Shown here: piece by piece, positions 1 through 6,964 of the stretch
Position numbering within the stretch: the stretch's first letter is position 1
Layout of the letters: every line of letters starts with the position of its first letter
Source of the DNA: Clostridiales bacterium
GTDB lineage: Bacteria > Bacillota_A > Clostridia > Oscillospirales > Oscillospiraceae
NCBI GenBank assembly: GCA_019417795.1
Contig: DXUR01000131.1
Span: 1-6,964 of the forward strand
Direction of reading: 5' to 3'
Length of the DNA: 6,964 nucleotides
Program-made: the position numbers and the translations under genes
The notes under the pieces: generated by a model
The model's database searches: none
What the model was told of the DNA's origin: nothing
The model's input: the letters and a program-made list of their open reading frames with translations, nothing else

Positions 1-18
1 AACCATATAACCGTCTTT

Positions 19-41
19 GATGAAACTATTTTTGTTTCATC
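19..41. repeat. 8-bp stem-loop at left edge
   Basis: The arms 19-26 (GATGAAAC) and 34-41 (GTTTCATC) pair perfectly around a T-rich 7-base loop. There is no T run after the stem on either strand, so it is not a convincing terminator. It lies outside the inverted repeats that bound the hairpin cluster to its right and may be independent of it. Confidence 0.5.
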
Positions 42-54
42 GATGACATTGTAC

Positions 55-319
55 CTGCAAGCAATGTCTTTGTATATACAAAGACATTGCTTGCAAGAGC
101 TTGTTGGGCGCAGCCCAAACCCGGCGTTCTGCATCCGCTGGATGCAGGCTGCGCATTTGTGCCAAATGCTCTTTCAGCACTCCGCAGGAGTGCGCAGCCA
201 TCACGGAAGCGTGATGTTCACAGGGATTGGGATTGCACCCCAACAAGCAGAACACGCACGGCAAATTTGCAATGCCGTGCGTGTTCTGGCCTTTGTGCGC
301 ACAAAGGCACTGCTTGCAG
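55..319. repeat. Cluster of nested hairpins bounded by imperfect inverted repeats
   Basis: This non-coding stretch, starting 22 bases beyond the Nudix stop codon, is almost entirely inverted repeats. Perfect local hairpins are: 56-95 (40-bp palindrome); 104-109/113-118 (loop GCA); 129-136/140-147 (loop GCT); 153-159/163-169 (loop TGC); 177-183/187-193 (loop GCA); 199-205/210-216 (loop GAAG); 227-231/239-243; 248-263/273-288 (16 bp); and 289-308 (20-bp palindrome). Longer-range pairings are also visible. 99-108 is the exact complement of 239-248. 148-152 (GCTGC) pairs with 194-198 (GCAGC) and encloses two of the hairpins. The ends 55-73 and 301-319 are inverted repeats matching at 17 of 19 positions. 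No open frame here resembles a protein. It could be a MITE-like or other palindromic mobile repeat, or a structured RNA at the end of the operon transcript; I recognise no named family. The structure is certain, the role is not. Confidence 0.75.
56..95. repeat. 40-bp perfect palindrome
   Basis: Every base from 56 to 75 pairs with its partner from 95 to 76, with the centre at TATA and no unpaired loop. The right half (78-95) recurs with two differences at 301-318, so the left half can pair either locally or with the far end of the hairpin cluster. A palindrome of this length without a spacer can form a cruciform and is usually unstable in replicating DNA, which makes its retention notable. Confidence 0.85.
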
Positions 320-340
320 ATGCAAATTAGCTCAACAGAT

Positions 341-742
341 TTATTTCATCATCTCTCGGATTTTTTCCAGAATCCTCTGATCAGCCGGGAGCCACTGTAC
401 GGAATCCAGTTCGTCTTTTGTCAACCAGCGTGCGGCTTCGGCTTCTTTCAAAATAAGGTCGCCAGAGAGAACCACGCACCAGAAGCAGTCCATCGAAAGA
501 TGAAATGTCGGATAGTTGTATTCAATGGTTCCAATCTTATCATGTACCGCGATTTCAGTGTCCAGCTCTTCCTCAATTTCTCGTTTCAGCGCCTGCTGTG
601 GAGTCTCGCCCGGTTCGATTTTGCCGCCCGGAAATTCCCACTGCCCTTTATAGTCGCCATAGCCGCGGGCGGTGGCATAAATTCTGTGTTTGGTCTGGAT
701 GGAGTCGCAGATGACAGCTGCGACAACGCGAATCATTTTCAT
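341..742 (-). CDS. Nudix hydrolase, MutT/(deoxy)nucleotide pyrophosphohydrolase type
   Basis: Encodes a 133-aa cytosolic Nudix protein, a usual length for single-domain MutT-like enzymes that hydrolyse nucleoside triphosphates (for example oxidised dNTPs) to monophosphate and pyrophosphate. The Nudix box is seen from G40 to about T62: G40, E46, then R54-E55-I56-E57-E58-E59, preceded by the WEFPGGK segment (35-41) typical of MutT-like members. The glutamates that bind metal are present; the glycine expected near the end of the box is D61. The C-terminal WLPAD motif (117-121) also suits the subgroup. The start at 742 is favoured by a CTCCT complement (AGGAG) at 749-753, 6 bases upstream. It is the last gene of a three-gene operon, 14 bases after the helix-turn-helix gene. 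The exact substrate cannot be read from sequence; a role in removing a nucleotide made or used by the helicase/nuclease is inference. Confidence 0.9.
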   Translation of the reverse strand: MKMIRVVAAVICDSIQTKHRIYATARGYGDYKGQWEFPGGKIEPGETPQQALKREIEEELDTEIAVHDKIGTIEYNYPTFHLSMDCFWCVVLSGDLILKEAEAARWLTKDELDSVQWLPADQRILEKIREMMK

Positions 743-756
743 GAAAATCTCCTGAA

Positions 757-1125
757 TTATTTTTCATAATAGAGTGGACAACCCAGCTTTTTCAACTTGG
801 ATTCGATTGCGCCTGTAGAACGTTTTAGGATGATAGAAATTCGGTTGACACTATTTCCCTGCTGGTGGAGCCGCAACAATTCACGTTCTTCTTTTTGTGA
901 CCATGCTGTTCCAGCGCGAGAATAACGCTCTGCCTTTTTGTTTCGAGGAAGAGACTTCAGATATTCAGCGGTAGATTCAATAGAGCAATGTTCCAATACA
1001 ATCTTTAATGCTTCTTGAATTTCTTCCTGAGCACAACTATCATTTTCAGACAGAATCCAACCGGTTAAAGGATCAATACCTTTTGCAAGAGTTTCAATTA
1101 TGGTGCGAGCCAGCATATCGTCCAT
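757..1125 (-). CDS. Small protein with C-terminal Myb-like helix-turn-helix
   Basis: Encodes 122 aa. Residues about 72-114 form a Myb/SANT-like or sigma-like helix-turn-helix: an AWSQKEE start with W75, a first helix rich in E, L and R, a second helix around 91-100, and a recognition helix with the RSTGAIESKLKKLG pattern (102-115). That pattern recurs in bacterial proteins that carry this module behind helicase or nuclease domains. Residues 10-45 contain a DPLTG motif (18-22) followed by an acidic helix; this resembles a small N-terminal module I have seen with the same HTH, but I cannot name it. The ATG lies 6 bases after the helicase stop codon with only a weak GGGG-like ribosome binding site overlapping that stop, which suggests translational coupling. 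Base composition looks more AT-rich than the helicase gene. It is probably a DNA-binding accessory or regulator of the operon; the target is unknown. Confidence 0.75.
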   Translation of the reverse strand: MDDMLARTIIETLAKGIDPLTGWILSENDSCAQEEIQEALKIVLEHCSIESTAEYLKSLPRNKKAERYSRAGTAWSQKEERELLRLHQQGNSVNRISIILKRSTGAIESKLKKLGCPLYYEK

Positions 1126-1131
1126 AGTATG

Positions 1132-4100
1132 TTACCCCACGATCAGTTTGTTGGTCTTTTTGAGGAACCGTGCCGGAATGGGACGGTCGAGCTTCCATGT
1201 GATGTTCATGGGGCGGGAACCCTCATGCCGGACATAATTCACGGTGCCAAGATAGGTGTAAGCGGCGGCACCGCCGAAACGGGAATCCGCTTTGAACTCC
1301 CGGACAAACAGCAACACACGGCTTCCTTTCTCCCGGTGATGGATGTATCGCTGACCAGTGGCAGAATTTTCAGCTGTGGTGCTCTGGCTCTGCCAGTGGA
1401 ACAGGTTCTCGTTGATGGAATAATCGTTGTACATGGTGGTGGGCGAATAATCCTTGTCGGCTTTGTTCAGGGTCACAAAGAACACATCCAACTGCTTTTC
1501 CGGCAGCCACTTCACACCTTCACGAACGGTAGATGGTTTCAGGAAATCCAGTGCTACCAACAGCTGGTCGCGGGTGTAGGTGCAGTGCAGGTCGAGCGGG
1601 CAGTCAAAGCCCACGTCCACCGGTTCATCAATAAAATCAATGCGGTCATACTGGTATTGTAGAAGGGTCTGCAATTCGCCCAACAAAATTGGGCTGTCCG
1701 AAAGTGCATACAGATCGTCAAGTACGTCCTCGCGGTTCCAATCTTCTGCCGCTTTGCCCCAGACAGTCACATAGAACATTTGCAGCATCCGCTGTTCAAC
1801 AGGCGGCAGGTCTGCAAAATCCGTGTTGTCCAGCTTTGGCAGAAGGTCCAGCAAAAAACGAATCCACCGACGGGAATCCACAACCACAAAGCGTGCAAAG
1901 GCTTTGGTCAGGGTCTCTTCGAGCGGCTCCGCAAAATCATCTACAACCCCCGCACGGACGCACAGCCGTGCAAAGCAGAGCTTTTTACTGTAGAGCGCCC
2001 GCGGGTCAAGATGATAGTAATCGAAAAAATTTCCAAGGGTCAGCGGTAGGCCGGTGTCCTCAGTGAAAGAGGCAGCGCGTGCCACAAGGCCGGAGGTGCG
2101 GTCGTAGGAGGCGCTGATGTTGTCCAGCACATATTTCGCCGCAATCTTTTCCAACTGGATATAGCAACCCTTGGGAGCGGAGACAAAGCCCTCTTTGATC
2201 TCCCGGCTGACGCTGTGGGTGGTGTTGGAGAGCAGGGCGGCAAACTTTTCCTCGAAATTATACTTCTTGTTCGCCTGCCCGATGAAGTCCAATACGGTCA
2301 AGCATTCCTTGTTTTCGGCCAGACGCAGGCCACGGCCCAGCTGCTGCAAAAACACGGTCAGCGACTCAGTAGGGCGCAGGAACAGTACGGTGTTGACTTC
2401 CGGGATGTCTACGCCTTCGTTATAGATGTCCACCACAAAGATGAAACGAATTTCCCCGGAAACGAGCCGTTGTTTGGCGGTGCTCCGCTCCTCGTCGGAA
2501 GAATCCCCGGTCAGTGCCATGGACGGGATGCCGTGGGTGTTGAAATAATTTGCCATGAACCGGGCGTGCTCGATGGAGACGCAGAACCCAAGACCCTTTA
2601 CTTCATCGATATCGGTGACGTATTTCAAGATGGAGTTCACCACAAGGTCGGCACGGCGCTGTGCCACCATGCCGCTGAAGGTGTACAGGTTGGACAGTTC
2701 GGCCTTGTCATAACCGCCGGTGCGCCATTTCAGGCTGCTCAAATCGGCCGTGTCGGTCACTCCGAAATATTGGAATGGACACAGTAGCTTCCGGTCGATG
2801 GCTTCCGGCAGGCGAATCTCGGCGGCAATGCGTCCGCCGAAATAGTCCAGGACGCTTTTTCCGTCCATGCGTTCCGGGGTAGCGGTCAGACCCAGCAAAA
2901 TCTGCGGCCGGTAATACTCCAACAACTTCTGATAAGTTGGCGCCGCGGCATGGTGGAACTCGTCCACCACGATGTAATCATAAAAAGCAGCCCCGGCTTT
3001 GGCCGTGAAATCCTGTGAATTGAAGGTCTGGATGGAGATGAACAGGTGGTCGATGCTGTCCGCCTTGTAATTGCCGACCAACAGCTCGCCGAAATTGGCA
3101 TCCTTCAGCACGGCACGGAAGGTGTACAGGCTCTGTTTCAGGATTTCTTCCCGGTGTGCCACGAACAGCAGGCGGCAGGGCAGGCCGGGACGCTGTTTGC
3201 AGAACCGTTTGTAGTCCAGCGCAGAGATGACCGTCTTACCGGTGCCGGTGGCGGCCACCACCAGATTGCGGGTGTGCCCACGCACAGCGCGCTCCGCTTC
3301 CAGCTTGTCCAGAATTTCCTGCTGATAAGAATAGGGCTGGATGTCCAGCGTGTAAATGCCGCTGTGGTCGGTCTCACTGTACTTTTCGGCTTTCAGAGCA
3401 CGGGTCAGACGCTCCCGCTGGCCTTCGTCGTAGTATTCAAACTCGCCAGCATTCCAGTAGCTTTCAAAGGTGGCGGCGATCTTGTCAATGGTCTCCGGCA
3501 GGTCTTTCTTCGTCACTTTCACGTTCCATTCCAGCCCACTGGAAATGGCCGCGTTGGACAGGTTGGATGAGCCGACATAGGCCGTTGTAAAGCCCGTGTC
3601 CCGGTAGAACACATAGGTCTTGGCGTGGAGCCGGGTACGCTTAGTGTCATAGCTGACCTTGATTTTCGTGTTGGGCAGTTGGCGCAGCTCCTCGATAGCC
3701 TTTACATCGGTGGCACCCATGTAGGAGGTGGTGATGATGCGCAGTTCGCCGCCGTTCTGGGTGAACTGCCGCAGCTCGTCCATGAGAAGGCGCAGGCCGC
3801 TCCACTTGATAAAGGACACCAGCATGTCAATGCGGTCGGCGGACACGATCTCCTTTTTCAGTTCAGTGTACATCTGCGGCTCGTGGATGGCACCGGTAAA
3901 CAGGGAGCTTTGTGCCAGAGACGTTTCCGGCCGCTCGATGTCCTTGGCAGCTTTTCCGGCGGCAAGGAAGGGGTCGCTTTCCCGTAAAAGCGCAAGAAGC
4001 TGCTCTGCCCGCTGGTCAACGCCCAGCGCGGCAAAGTCAGCTTCTTTGGTGGTCGTCTGGATGGTGCTTACGATCTGGTTCGCCAGCTCAATTTGCGCTT

Positions 4101-4290
4101 CGATGCCGCCGCCATTGTCCTGTACGTTATCAAGGCCCTTCTGCACCACCTCGGTCAGATACTGCGCCAGCACCTTGGACGCCTCTGCCGTGTCGATGGG
4201 CGCAGTGGATTTGCGGGCTTCCGGGATCTCCGAAAGCTCACTCTCCAGAGCGTTGTTGATGACCTGTTCGTACAGTCCGGGGTGAAGCAT
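1132..4290 (-). CDS. Phospholipase D-like / SF2 helicase / DUF3427 fusion protein
   Basis: Encodes a 1052-aa protein of about 119 kDa with no signal peptide or membrane segment. Residues 1-130 are an N-terminal region found in this helicase family. Residues 130-260 are a phospholipase D-like (HKD nuclease) domain with H222-x-K224 and the GSSN motif at 240-243. Residues 315-665 are a superfamily II helicase: Walker A ATGTGKT (347-353), DEFH box (443-446), TAT (469-471), motif V around 619-630 and QxxGRxxR (Q649, G652, R653, R656). Residues about 665-1050 match the DUF3427 region. The start is set by AAGGAAG (complement of 4298-4304), 7 bases upstream. It heads the operon. The expected activity is ATP-driven translocation or unwinding of nucleic acid coupled to a nuclease; such proteins occur in defence and mobile regions, often with a Nudix gene. 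Only one HKD motif is seen, so an active nuclease would need a dimer. The fold assignment is firm; the biological role is inferred. Confidence 0.92.
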   Translation of the reverse strand: MLHPGLYEQVINNALESELSEIPEARKSTAPIDTAEASKVLAQYLTEVVQKGLDNVQDNGGGIEAQIELANQIVSTIQTTTKEADFAALGVDQRAEQLLALLRESDPFLAAGKAAKDIERPETSLAQSSLFTGAIHEPQMYTELKKEIVSADRIDMLVSFIKWSGLRLLMDELRQFTQNGGELRIITTSYMGATDVKAIEELRQLPNTKIKVSYDTKRTRLHAKTYVFYRDTGFTTAYVGSSNLSNAAISSGLEWNVKVTKKDLPETIDKIAATFESYWNAGEFEYYDEGQRERLTRALKAEKYSETDHSGIYTLDIQPYSYQQEILDKLEAERAVRGHTRNLVVAATGTGKTVISALDYKRFCKQRPGLPCRLLFVAHREEILKQSLYTFRAVLKDANFGELLVGNYKADSIDHLFISIQTFNSQDFTAKAGAAFYDYIVVDEFHHAAAPTYQKLLEYYRPQILLGLTATPERMDGKSVLDYFGGRIAAEIRLPEAIDRKLLCPFQYFGVTDTADLSSLKWRTGGYDKAELSNLYTFSGMVAQRRADLVVNSILKYVTDIDEVKGLGFCVSIEHARFMANYFNTHGIPSMALTGDSSDEERSTAKQRLVSGEIRFIFVVDIYNEGVDIPEVNTVLFLRPTESLTVFLQQLGRGLRLAENKECLTVLDFIGQANKKYNFEEKFAALLSNTTHSVSREIKEGFVSAPKGCYIQLEKIAAKYVLDNISASYDRTSGLVARAASFTEDTGLPLTLGNFFDYYHLDPRALYSKKLCFARLCVRAGVVDDFAEPLEETLTKAFARFVVVDSRRWIRFLLDLLPKLDNTDFADLPPVEQRMLQMFYVTVWGKAAEDWNREDVLDDLYALSDSPILLGELQTLLQYQYDRIDFIDEPVDVGFDCPLDLHCTYTRDQLLVALDFLKPSTVREGVKWLPEKQLDVFFVTLNKADKDYSPTTMYNDYSINENLFHWQSQSTTAENSATGQRYIHHREKGSRVLLFVREFKADSRFGGAAAYTYLGTVNYVRHEGSRPMNITWKLDRPIPARFLKKTNKLIVG

Positions 4291-4603: not shown

Positions 4604-4650
4604 AACAAGACCCACAGATTGGGATGAGCATCCAATCTGTGGGTCTTGTT
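4604..4650 (+). terminator. Long stem-loop, terminator of the DUF7695-like remnant
   Basis: Arms 4604-4622 and 4632-4650 form a perfect 19-bp stem, with a possible extra G-T pair and a loop of 7-9 bases. The left arm begins AACAAGA and the right arm ends TCTTGTT, so the distal stem is A/T-rich, but the following GTATCC is a poor U-tract. It probably ends plus-strand transcription and may work in both directions. It lies between the Fic gene and the helicase operon and could insulate them. Confidence 0.65.
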
Positions 4651-4669
4651 GTATCCATTTGCTGATACT

Positions 4670-4753: not shown

Positions 4754-4805
4754 TTCTCTTAAAATTGGCCGTATTTTAAAGGAAAGATGGAACGATTAAG
4801 GGATT
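4754..4805. repeat. Degenerate 3' copy of the Fic control region
   Basis: This segment aligns without gaps to 5869-5920, the Fic promoter/operator, at 38 of 52 positions. The outer blocks agree well: left arm 11 of 12, and a right 33-base block at 26 of 33. All seven differences in the right block are transitions (A/G or C/T). The central 7-base spacer, where the -10 box sits in the upstream copy, has diverged. The copy overlaps the Fic stop codon by two bases. The symmetric arms remain imperfectly palindromic, so it may still bind the same protein. Confidence 0.75.
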
Positions 4806-5850
4806 ACTTCAACCGTAGGTACACAGTTGATTTGCCTGCTCCCTCGCGTTTCAACTCGCCGCTTTCAACGAGCTTCCGCAGGGAGCCCTCAATGGAACTG
4901 AGGCTCAGCGAAGGGCAGAGTTCCCGGATATCCTGCTTGGTAAAGCGTCCGATCTTGTTCTTCGTGGCATTCCGAACAACTTCAATGGCGGGAAGTTTTG
5001 TTTCCACGAGGGCAAAGCGCTCTTCAAAATCGCGGTATGCAGAGAGAATGGTTCCCAAAATATATTTGATGAATGGAACAACATCCTCTGTGCCCTCGTA
5101 CCATCCGGTTTGTGCCTGTGCAAGAGCTGAATAGTAGAGGTCTTTGTCCTTGGCAATCTTGGCTTCAAGTGAGATGTATTTCCCAACGTAGAAACCGTTT
5201 TGATACAGCATCAGGGTTGTGAGAAGTCGGCTCATTCTGCCATTGCCATCGTTAAAAGGGTGAATACAGAGAAAATCATGGATAAACACAGGGATTGCGA
5301 TCAATGGCTCTACTTCAAAGTTCCCGATCACACGGTTGTATTCTTCGCAGATTCGGTCAAGAGCCGCTGGCGTTTCGTAAGGAGCCAATGGGGTGAAAAG
5401 AACTTCGCTATGTCCATCGGGATAGGTTGCGCTGATATAATTCTGTACGTTCTTCGTCCGTCCTGCGACGGGGTTGTTCATGTGGCTGTACAAAACCTTA
5501 TGCAGCTGCAAAATATAATTCTGCGTAATCGGAATCACATCAAAATTTTCATGAATGAGGTTCAGGACATCACGGTAGCCTGCAATCTCTTGTTCATCAC
5601 GGTTGCGCGGCGTCGTTTTTTCCTCCACAAGCTGCTTGATTCGGGTGCTGGTGGTCACGATTCCCTCGATGGCATTGGATGCTTCGGTGCTTTGCACCTT
5701 TGCAATCTCCACCAGACGTTCCAGCTCTTCAGGACGCTGCTTCAAGTAAAGTTCCTGCTTACCCGCTTCTTTATAGATTGCAGCAATATAGCCGAGAATC
5801 TCGGAATCCCATTTTTGCTCTTTGATTTTGGAGTAATTGAATGCTCTCAT
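4804..5850 (-). CDS. Fic family protein (class II, with C-terminal winged helix)
   Basis: Encodes 348 aa. Fic enzymes transfer AMP, or occasionally another nucleotide, from a nucleotide donor to a hydroxyl side chain of a target protein. The catalytic motif HPFNDGNGRMSR lies at 197-208, with the active histidine H197, metal-binding D201, and R205 and R208 all present. An inhibitory-helix motif S58-NAI-E62-G63 lies ahead of the Fic core, which places it in class II (self-inhibited through an N-terminal helix). Residues about 300-348 resemble a winged helix (RFTKQDIREL..., GSLRKLVESGELKREG), so the protein may bind DNA. The ATG follows a GAGGG-type site at 5858-5865. It is transcribed alone from a promoter embedded in a 13-bp inverted repeat, and autoregulation through its own winged helix is plausible. 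No separate antitoxin gene is adjacent, in line with the built-in inhibitory helix. The target protein is unknown. Confidence 0.93.
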   Translation of the reverse strand: MRAFNYSKIKEQKWDSEILGYIAAIYKEAGKQELYLKQRPEELERLVEIAKVQSTEASNAIEGIVTTSTRIKQLVEEKTTPRNRDEQEIAGYRDVLNLIHENFDVIPITQNYILQLHKVLYSHMNNPVAGRTKNVQNYISATYPDGHSEVLFTPLAPYETPAALDRICEEYNRVIGNFEVEPLIAIPVFIHDFLCIHPFNDGNGRMSRLLTTLMLYQNGFYVGKYISLEAKIAKDKDLYYSALAQAQTGWYEGTEDVVPFIKYILGTILSAYRDFEERFALVETKLPAIEVVRNATKNKIGRFTKQDIRELCPSLSLSSIEGSLRKLVESGELKREGAGKSTVYLRLK

Positions 5851-6418: not shown

Positions 6419-6964
6419 TTATACGCTCCTTAATAATTCTTTCTTCATGTGAGGAATCGCCCCATACCGGCCTTGCAGATAGCCTTTGGCGATATTCTCA
6501 CCTTTCCGGGGAGAAAACTCGGTCAGGGCATAAATATCGGTCTGCATGGTCTTTTCGTTCTTCTCTGCAAACCAGATCTGGTCTCGGCGCAGCAGGGTCA
6601 GGTCAAGAAGGCCAGTATCATGGGTGGTGAAGATAAGCTGGGCGTGGTTCGTATTGATGGCAGCATCCTGCACCATCTCGATCAGATGCCGGGTCAGAAG
6701 CGGGTGCATACTGGATTCGATCTCGTCTACGACCAGCACGGCCCCGGATTCCAGAGCGGCCAGCCACATCCCAATGCGGGAGAAGAACCGCTGTGTGCCG
6801 ACCGATTCCAGCCCCAGAGAAAGCCAGAATCCCTTGGGAGCACCGTCCCCGGAATCCAGCGTGTGCAGGGCAGAGATGATGGGTTCGTCCTTGGAGCCGG
6901 TAATGCGGATGTCTTTGATGCCGAGGTCTGCATACAGCATTTCATGCAGGATACGGCTCTTTTC
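6419..6964 (-). CDS. AAA15/COG1106-like ATPase, C-terminal part (runs off the right edge)
   Basis: The last 181 residues are present, and the frame stays open to the window edge, so the N-terminus with Walker A lies outside. Seen here are an ABC-type signature-like ESVGTQR (about 53-59 of the fragment), a Walker B strand AVLVVDEIE with D80 and E81, an MHP turn, and the H-loop segment LIFTTHDTGLLD with H115. The end, GENIAKGYLQGRYGAIP, is typical of overcoming-lysogenization/AAA15-type ATPases of COG1106. Such ATPases are often one half of two-gene defence modules (for example RloA with RloB, or PARIS AriA with AriB). Here the next gene is not a recognisable RloB or TOPRIM protein but a small frameshifted one. 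The family call is good; a defence role is inference from family and context. Confidence 0.85.
   Translation of the reverse strand, partial: EKSRILHEMLYADLGIKDIRITGSKDEPIISALHTLDSGDGAPKGFWLSLGLESVGTQRFFSRIGMWLAALESGAVLVVDEIESSMHPLLTRHLIEMVQDAAINTNHAQLIFTTHDTGLLDLTLLRRDQIWFAEKNEKTMQTDIYALTEFSPRKGENIAKGYLQGRYGAIPHMKKELLRSV

Follow-up and report, generated by a model that had tools for sequence, protein, structure and literature searches.

Two inverted, folded DNA units beside defence-related genes of a Clostridiales bacterium are probable extended origins of transfer

The hairpin cluster at positions 55-319 of a 6,964 nt stretch of DNA from a Clostridiales bacterium (Oscillospiraceae; contig DXUR01000131.1), here called the window, consists of two convergent (back-to-back) copies of one folded unit. 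Probably (a chance of roughly three in four), each unit serves a MOBP relaxase of the Tn1549 kind as an extended origin of transfer (oriT), which would place two such origins back to back in the window. The unit is read as an extended oriT because the complement of its edge is a nic sequence, the better-folded strand is the one presumed to be cut, the hairpins are on the 5′ side of the predicted cut, and relaxases are found on the side that would be transferred last.

About nine densely packed hairpins, several with named triloops, had been described in an initial sequence-only reading, and both the sequence and the predicted folds bear this out (Table 1). As single-stranded DNA, positions 40-340 fold with -97.6 kcal/mol, compared to a mean of -52.9 (sd 3.8) for 100 shuffled sequences, none of which equalled it (z -11.8); with RNA parameters the cluster gives z -10.5. 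The layout was absent from that reading: an iterated profile places two unit cores in the window in inverted orientation, so that the array amounts to one unit present twice. Unit A carries an extra TGCTTGCA at 88-95, inside its palindrome, and a third, weak model match (27-97, minus strand, 33.6 bits) overlaps the same palindrome.

Table 1. Features of the window. The window sequence is part of the alignments underlying both models, R1 and R2, whose scores are given for units A and B. A slash marks the predicted cut.
Feature	Position	Strand	Description	Basis
Inverted repeat	56-95		40-nt perfect palindrome	sequence and folds
Inverted repeat	104-108/114-118			sequence and folds
Inverted repeat	129-136/140-147		loop GCT	sequence and folds
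Inverted repeat	153-159/163-169		loop TGC	sequence and folds
Inverted repeat	177-183/187-193		loop GCA	sequence and folds
Inverted repeat	199-205/210-216			sequence and folds
Inverted repeat	227-231/239-243			sequence and folds
Inverted repeat	248-263/273-288			sequence and folds
Inverted repeat	289-298/299-308			sequence and folds
Long-range inverted repeat	99-108/239-248			sequence and folds
Unit A, modelled	54-182	+	core 57-170	R2 97.0 bits, E 3e-22; R1 112 bits; nhmmer
Unit B, modelled	164-320	-	core 317-176	R2 101.9 bits, E 1.8e-23; R1 99.5 bits; nhmmer E 9e-18
Strand presumed cut, unit A		-
Strand presumed cut, unit B		+
Predicted nic, unit A	56-63	-	TGCTTG/CA, between 58 and 57; transferred strand would lead left	sequence; motif from PMC7755788
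Predicted nic, unit B	311-318	+	TGCTTG/CA, between 316 and 317; transferred strand would lead right	sequence; motif from PMC7755788
Conserved core, unit A	99-122	+	GCTTGTTGGG..CCCAAACCC	core pattern: 2 window matches, mean 0.00 in 200 shuffles
Conserved core, unit B	223-248	-	GCTTGTTGGG..CCCAATCCC	one of the same 2 window matches
NUDIX protein, first gene right of unit B	341-742	-		Pfam PF00293; PADLOC PDC-S07
122-aa protein, same gene string	757-1125	-		no Pfam or PADLOC match
PLD-nuclease/helicase with DUF3427, type IV restriction-like	1132-4290	-		Pfam; PADLOC mREase_IV E 2.6e-241
Fic protein	4804-5850	-		Pfam PF02661; PADLOC SoFic
AAA protein, AbiL-like	6419-6964	-	truncated by window end	Pfam PF13304; PADLOC AbiLi

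The element had been suggested to be mobile, and it does have many relatives: blastn finds them in all four of the genomes first examined and in 16 of 31 genomes of the genus. Model R1 (built from 34 units) detects units in at least 23 of the 31 genus genomes (E ≤ 0.01) and at least 64 of 197 family genomes (E ≤ 0.001), and model R2 (built from 113 aligned matches) in at least 98 of 391 class genomes (E ≤ 1e-4), where E-values are only rough and the counts are lower bounds because a limited number of candidates was scored per genome. Similarity searches with the window element gave three phage records and no matches among plasmids; with the Faecalibacterium unit L209 as query, pieces of 27-31 nt were found in two plasmids. 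No title describing the unit came up among open-licence papers on repeats in Faecalibacterium, on structured leaders of conjugative elements or on oriTs with structure. Locus L218 holds two other repeats (approximately 3286-3384 and 3390-3716), which are intergenic, dispersed and present in many copies in genus genomes.

The edge of the unit, GCAAGCA, can pair with a later TGCTTG to form stem P1, which encloses hairpins P2 and P3. Beyond P1 come TTGGG..CCCAA (P4), a run of CCC, P5, an unpaired GGCTGC, and P6, often with T's after it; the P5-GGCTGC-P6 part is present in the dispersed copies and absent from the copies of the Tn1549 type. Covariance among homologues had been put forward as a check on the hairpins, and the stems do covary. 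In the larger alignment (110 distinct rows), which was fitted to the structure, 31 of 38 pairs are doubly changed, with a score of 0.409 versus 0.105 when shuffled. The first alignment, made with MAFFT from 34 units, has 19 of 38 pairs doubly changed and a score of 0.281 (shuffled, 0.102; reached by 0 of 500 shuffles), while further pair types are no more numerous in it than expected by chance (81 of 500 shuffles reach their number). At many stem positions each of the four Watson-Crick pair types is seen, and G-U is rare except in one column. P1 scarcely varies, and it is therefore complementarity that speaks for this stem.

The earlier suggestion that folded single-stranded DNA could be the active form of the element is supported by a strand bias. 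With DNA parameters, the reverse of the modelled strand, which is the strand presumed cut, gives the better fold in 66 of 86 de-duplicated units, and the modelled strand in 18. For P2-P3 alone (58 of the 86 units have the needed motif) the ratio of reverse to modelled strand is 42:14 with RNA and 37:18 with DNA parameters. Stems of the modelled strand in 45 de-duplicated units contain 70 A-C versus 24 G-U cells, a count that leaves out the near-constant G-U pair at column 4, and these numbers swap on the other strand. Twelve copies of the Tn1549 type show a strand bias of 11:1, with no difference in G-U between their strands (10 vs 11). As a yardstick, 21 tRNAs have 52 G-U among 500 predicted pairs; in 18 of them the better fold is that of the sense strand.

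A structured RNA had also been proposed; it could be a cis-acting leader, an antitermination element or a small RNA. Copies of the Tn1549 type lie directly before the ribosome-binding sites of mobC and of an ArdC-like gene, many copies have T's after P6, and conjugative elements can carry such RNAs, as in the case of canT, the structured antitermination RNA of Tn916 (PMC11658703). The small number of G-U pairs and the better folding of the strand antisense to mobC nevertheless disfavour an RNA, as does the position of relaxase genes, 34 of 41 of which are not downstream in leader orientation. The unit also belongs to no Rfam family: in the window, Rfam 15 gave four matches at E ≤ 1, all below the gathering score and two of them within 54-286, and at eight other loci it found pemK only, outside the units. 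The RNA reading is kept as a rival and is very unlikely. The pemK cis-regulatory RNA is at L214 (1112-1176, minus strand), near another convergent pair.

The unit had been said to fit no feature type, and its edge suggests one. GCAAGC is the complement of GCTTG/C, the nic given for Tn1549; published nic sequences are RYGCTTG/C for Tn1549, CTTG/CA for pRS01 and TGCTTG/CCA for pRJ6 (as listed in PMC7755788). The GCTTGC edge is present in 103 of 110 distinct units, including both window units, and the RY that precedes nic in Tn1549 in only 24 of the 103. On the reverse of the modelled strand, TGCTTG/C stands at the 3′ edge of the unit. The predicted structure places nic inside stem P1, and the inverted repeat 5′ of nic corresponds to the covarying P2 hairpin, which adjoins the edge.

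The oriT of Tn1549 is given as 28 bp, 22239-22266 (secondary table in PMC7755788). With a copy of the Tn1549 type as query, 15 plasmid records were matched (14 Enterococcus, 1 Monoglobus), the matches lying at mobC or at a gene for a mobilisation protein. According to its gene table, pMG2200 carries a Tn1549-like element spanning approximately 8.6-42.5 kb, and an 8-mer common to both element ends is located at 8564 and 42371. With 8572 as the starting point, an offset deduced from the sequence, the RYGCTTGC at 30836 of the pMG2200 record would fall at about 22265 of the element, a position that other plausible element starts shift by up to ~250 bases; the next RYGCTTGC on that strand is 3.9 kb away. 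In the Tn1549-like element at L448 there are three model matches (16312-16429, 24168-24347 and 25736-25896), of which the second (minus strand) is at the listed oriT coordinate, just upstream of mobC, and the other two are before a YodL-domain gene and near 32.3 kb in pMG2200 numbering. The match to nic consists of six bases plus the coordinate. Two of the L448 matches flank mobilisation and YodL-domain genes, with their edges outward.

Relaxase genes recur beside the units. Six tblastn queries placed a relaxase within 1.5 kb of at least 41 of 105 distinct motif-bearing units, which are not mutually independent, and found none for the other 64; a Pfam Relaxase domain was present in all four relaxases tested. 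In 40 of the 41 the relaxase is only on the 3′ (P6) side, i.e., the side that would be transferred last, and L222 has matches on both sides. Judged by the nearest match, the 3′ end of the relaxase gene faces the P6 end in 33 cases, the unit lies upstream of the relaxase operon in seven, and in one (L222) the relaxase is on the 5′ side. Flanks of at least 1.5 kb were available on the 3′ side of 59 and the 5′ side of 86 of the 105 units; since fewer 3′ than 5′ flanks reached this length, the 3′ lean is not due to the available flanks and 41 is a lower bound. The Pfam scan found no relaxase domain in the seven scanned proteins of the window, which is short; a relaxase gene in cis would be unnecessary for an oriT that is served in trans.

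The same arrangement recalls a single-strand origin or initiation site (sso/ssi), a place where the transferred strand, once folded, attracts RNA polymerase or primase to begin the second strand. Such a site would be a strand-biased unit of several hairpins, as here, and in 33 of 105 units (by nearest relaxase) the unit is directly downstream of a relaxase gene on its coding strand, much as sso1 of ICEBs1 sits downstream of nicK (PMC4595007). It would leave unexplained, however, the invariant GCTTGC edge, the agreement with nic and with the Tn1549 oriT coordinate, and the switching of modules at that very base (see below). An sso in place of an oriT is accordingly unlikely; the hairpins could also serve as an sso in addition to a role in oriT.

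The edge is also where exchangeable blocks of DNA meet. One upstream block is found joined to several downstream blocks, and vice versa, with the switch at or just inside GCAAGC. Among 147 locus pairs (not independent) that share at least 350 nt downstream, similarity begins exactly at the G of GCAAGC in 39, which is the mode; it begins 0-10 nt before that G in 74 (including the 39) and 32-59 nt inside in 47. The left block is also exchanged, because window positions 1-55 recur next to another unit in MT836237 (98.2% over 55 nt) and in L124. Copies of the Tn1549 type share their upstream DNA too, and the unit is therefore no join there. Followed towards their right ends, the downstream blocks showed conjugative elements of tens of kb. 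In plasmids of Staphylococcus, recombination between oriT copies is described as narrowed to nic (PMC4652767).

Strand-biased folding combined with module switching at one edge could also point to another type of folded single-strand recombination site, such as attC, or to a transcription terminator or insulator at module ends. The arms of attC follow the order RYYYAAC..GTTRRRY, and those of the unit (GTTGGG..CCCAAC) are in the opposite order. Searches of the genus and family genomes also gave no arrays of units, making this reading the least credible of those considered, even though attC does recombine through its folded bottom strand (PMC2727003).

Six other convergent pairs of the Faecalibacterium type were examined (L001, L111, L115, L116, L214 and L225). 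On the unit-B side, four of them have restriction, methylase or HATPase genes, or the same NUDIX gene as the window; at L116 and L225 no such genes are seen there. Two oriTs in inverted orientation are an unusual arrangement. At three loci, a segment of ~950 bp is bounded on both sides by a unit and encloses one TnpV gene (L371 704-1660, L366 762-1660 and L372 707-1660). TnpV was considered as the partner of the unit and set aside, as it lies between two units only at these loci, and the other 17 of 20 tblastn rows fall, at 35-43% identity, in long stretches of other loci. Also rejected was the idea that the units are the ends of transposons of 5-15 kb, prompted by weak hits 5-15 kb apart; those inspected were two units beside mobilisation genes.

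Dispersed copies, single and in inverted pairs, and the TnpV gene between paired units in L366, L371 and L372 would suit a non-autonomous transposable repeat (MITE- or BIME-like) moved by some transposase, the window pair being one element with inverted ends. Flanks of L210, L215, L218 and L371 were searched and revealed neither a target duplication nor a clean empty site, the intergenic regions being too mosaic, and transposition would explain neither the relaxase side nor the nic motif; a repeat of this kind is a most improbable account. A related suggestion, a repeat handled by a single-strand transposase, is not borne out by the neighbours, which are other genes in most of 45 contexts (and in a further set), relaxases being what recurs on one side. 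The same contexts tell against the idea that the element is a substrate of the adjacent PLD/helicase, as most have other neighbours. The window belongs to Faecalibacterium, its helicase being 94% identical to one of F. prausnitzii APC923/51-1. A strong inverted repeat at 4604-4661, in the gap separating the helicase and Fic genes, is matched in L001 and L016.

Under the oriT reading, we infer cutting, transfer in trans, recombination and the function of the window pair as follows. A relaxase and MobC from a conjugative element elsewhere in the cell would bind the folded strand. The relaxase would cut between G and C, stay attached to the 5′ end thus created and carry the strand off in the direction away from the unit, so that the hairpins are transferred last, where they may aid recognition of the strand and its closure. 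As the two units are inverted and their predicted cuts face outward, the DNA of either flank could be transferred, which on the right would mean the block of NUDIX, type IV restriction, Fic and AbiL-like genes. The module switching at the edge would be accounted for by recombination at nic, or by transfer initiated at one copy and terminated at another. The window pair may be in use in trans, or may be a relic of an element.

A wider and more tentative proposal, which we consider possible though doubtful, is that Clostridia carry many relaxase-less folded oriTs, some as outward pairs, from which resident conjugative elements lead out chromosomal defence modules in both directions and splice them at nic, amounting to conjugation-based cassette shuffling of defence islands. 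If the units are indeed oriTs, an oriT of 28 bp would extend to a conserved folded DNA domain that can be found across Clostridia with a covariance model, the unit would mark mobilisable DNA that lacks any mobility gene, and there would be a concrete mechanism by which gut commensals swap defence genes at precise edges.

Several known systems resemble the unit in part. REP/BIME and MITE repeats, including bcr1, are likewise short, dispersed intergenic hairpins found singly or in inverted pairs (as described in PMC3733652 and PMC2267715), but the units here are oriented relative to relaxase genes and have an edge that matches nic. The sso1 of ICEBs1 has several hairpins, is strand-specific and is directly downstream of the relaxase gene; it differs in being defined by second-strand synthesis and in resembling the sso of rolling-circle plasmids, and the likeness drawn here is to its description (PMC4595007). 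Closest is the oriT of Tn1549, served by a MOBP relaxase with MobC, which shares the GCTTG/C edge and has a unit at its listed coordinate upstream of mobC. Its listed length is 28 bp, whereas the unit is a covarying chain of hairpins of ~130-150 nt; the dispersed copies add P5-GGCTGC-P6 and often have no relaxase found nearby, and the window has an inverted pair. The oriTs of non-conjugative Staphylococcus plasmids, as presented in PMC4652767, are, as proposed for the window, used in trans, on DNA without a relaxase of its own; they belong to another relaxase family with a different nic and are carried on plasmids, in contrast to the chromosomal pairs beside defence genes described here.
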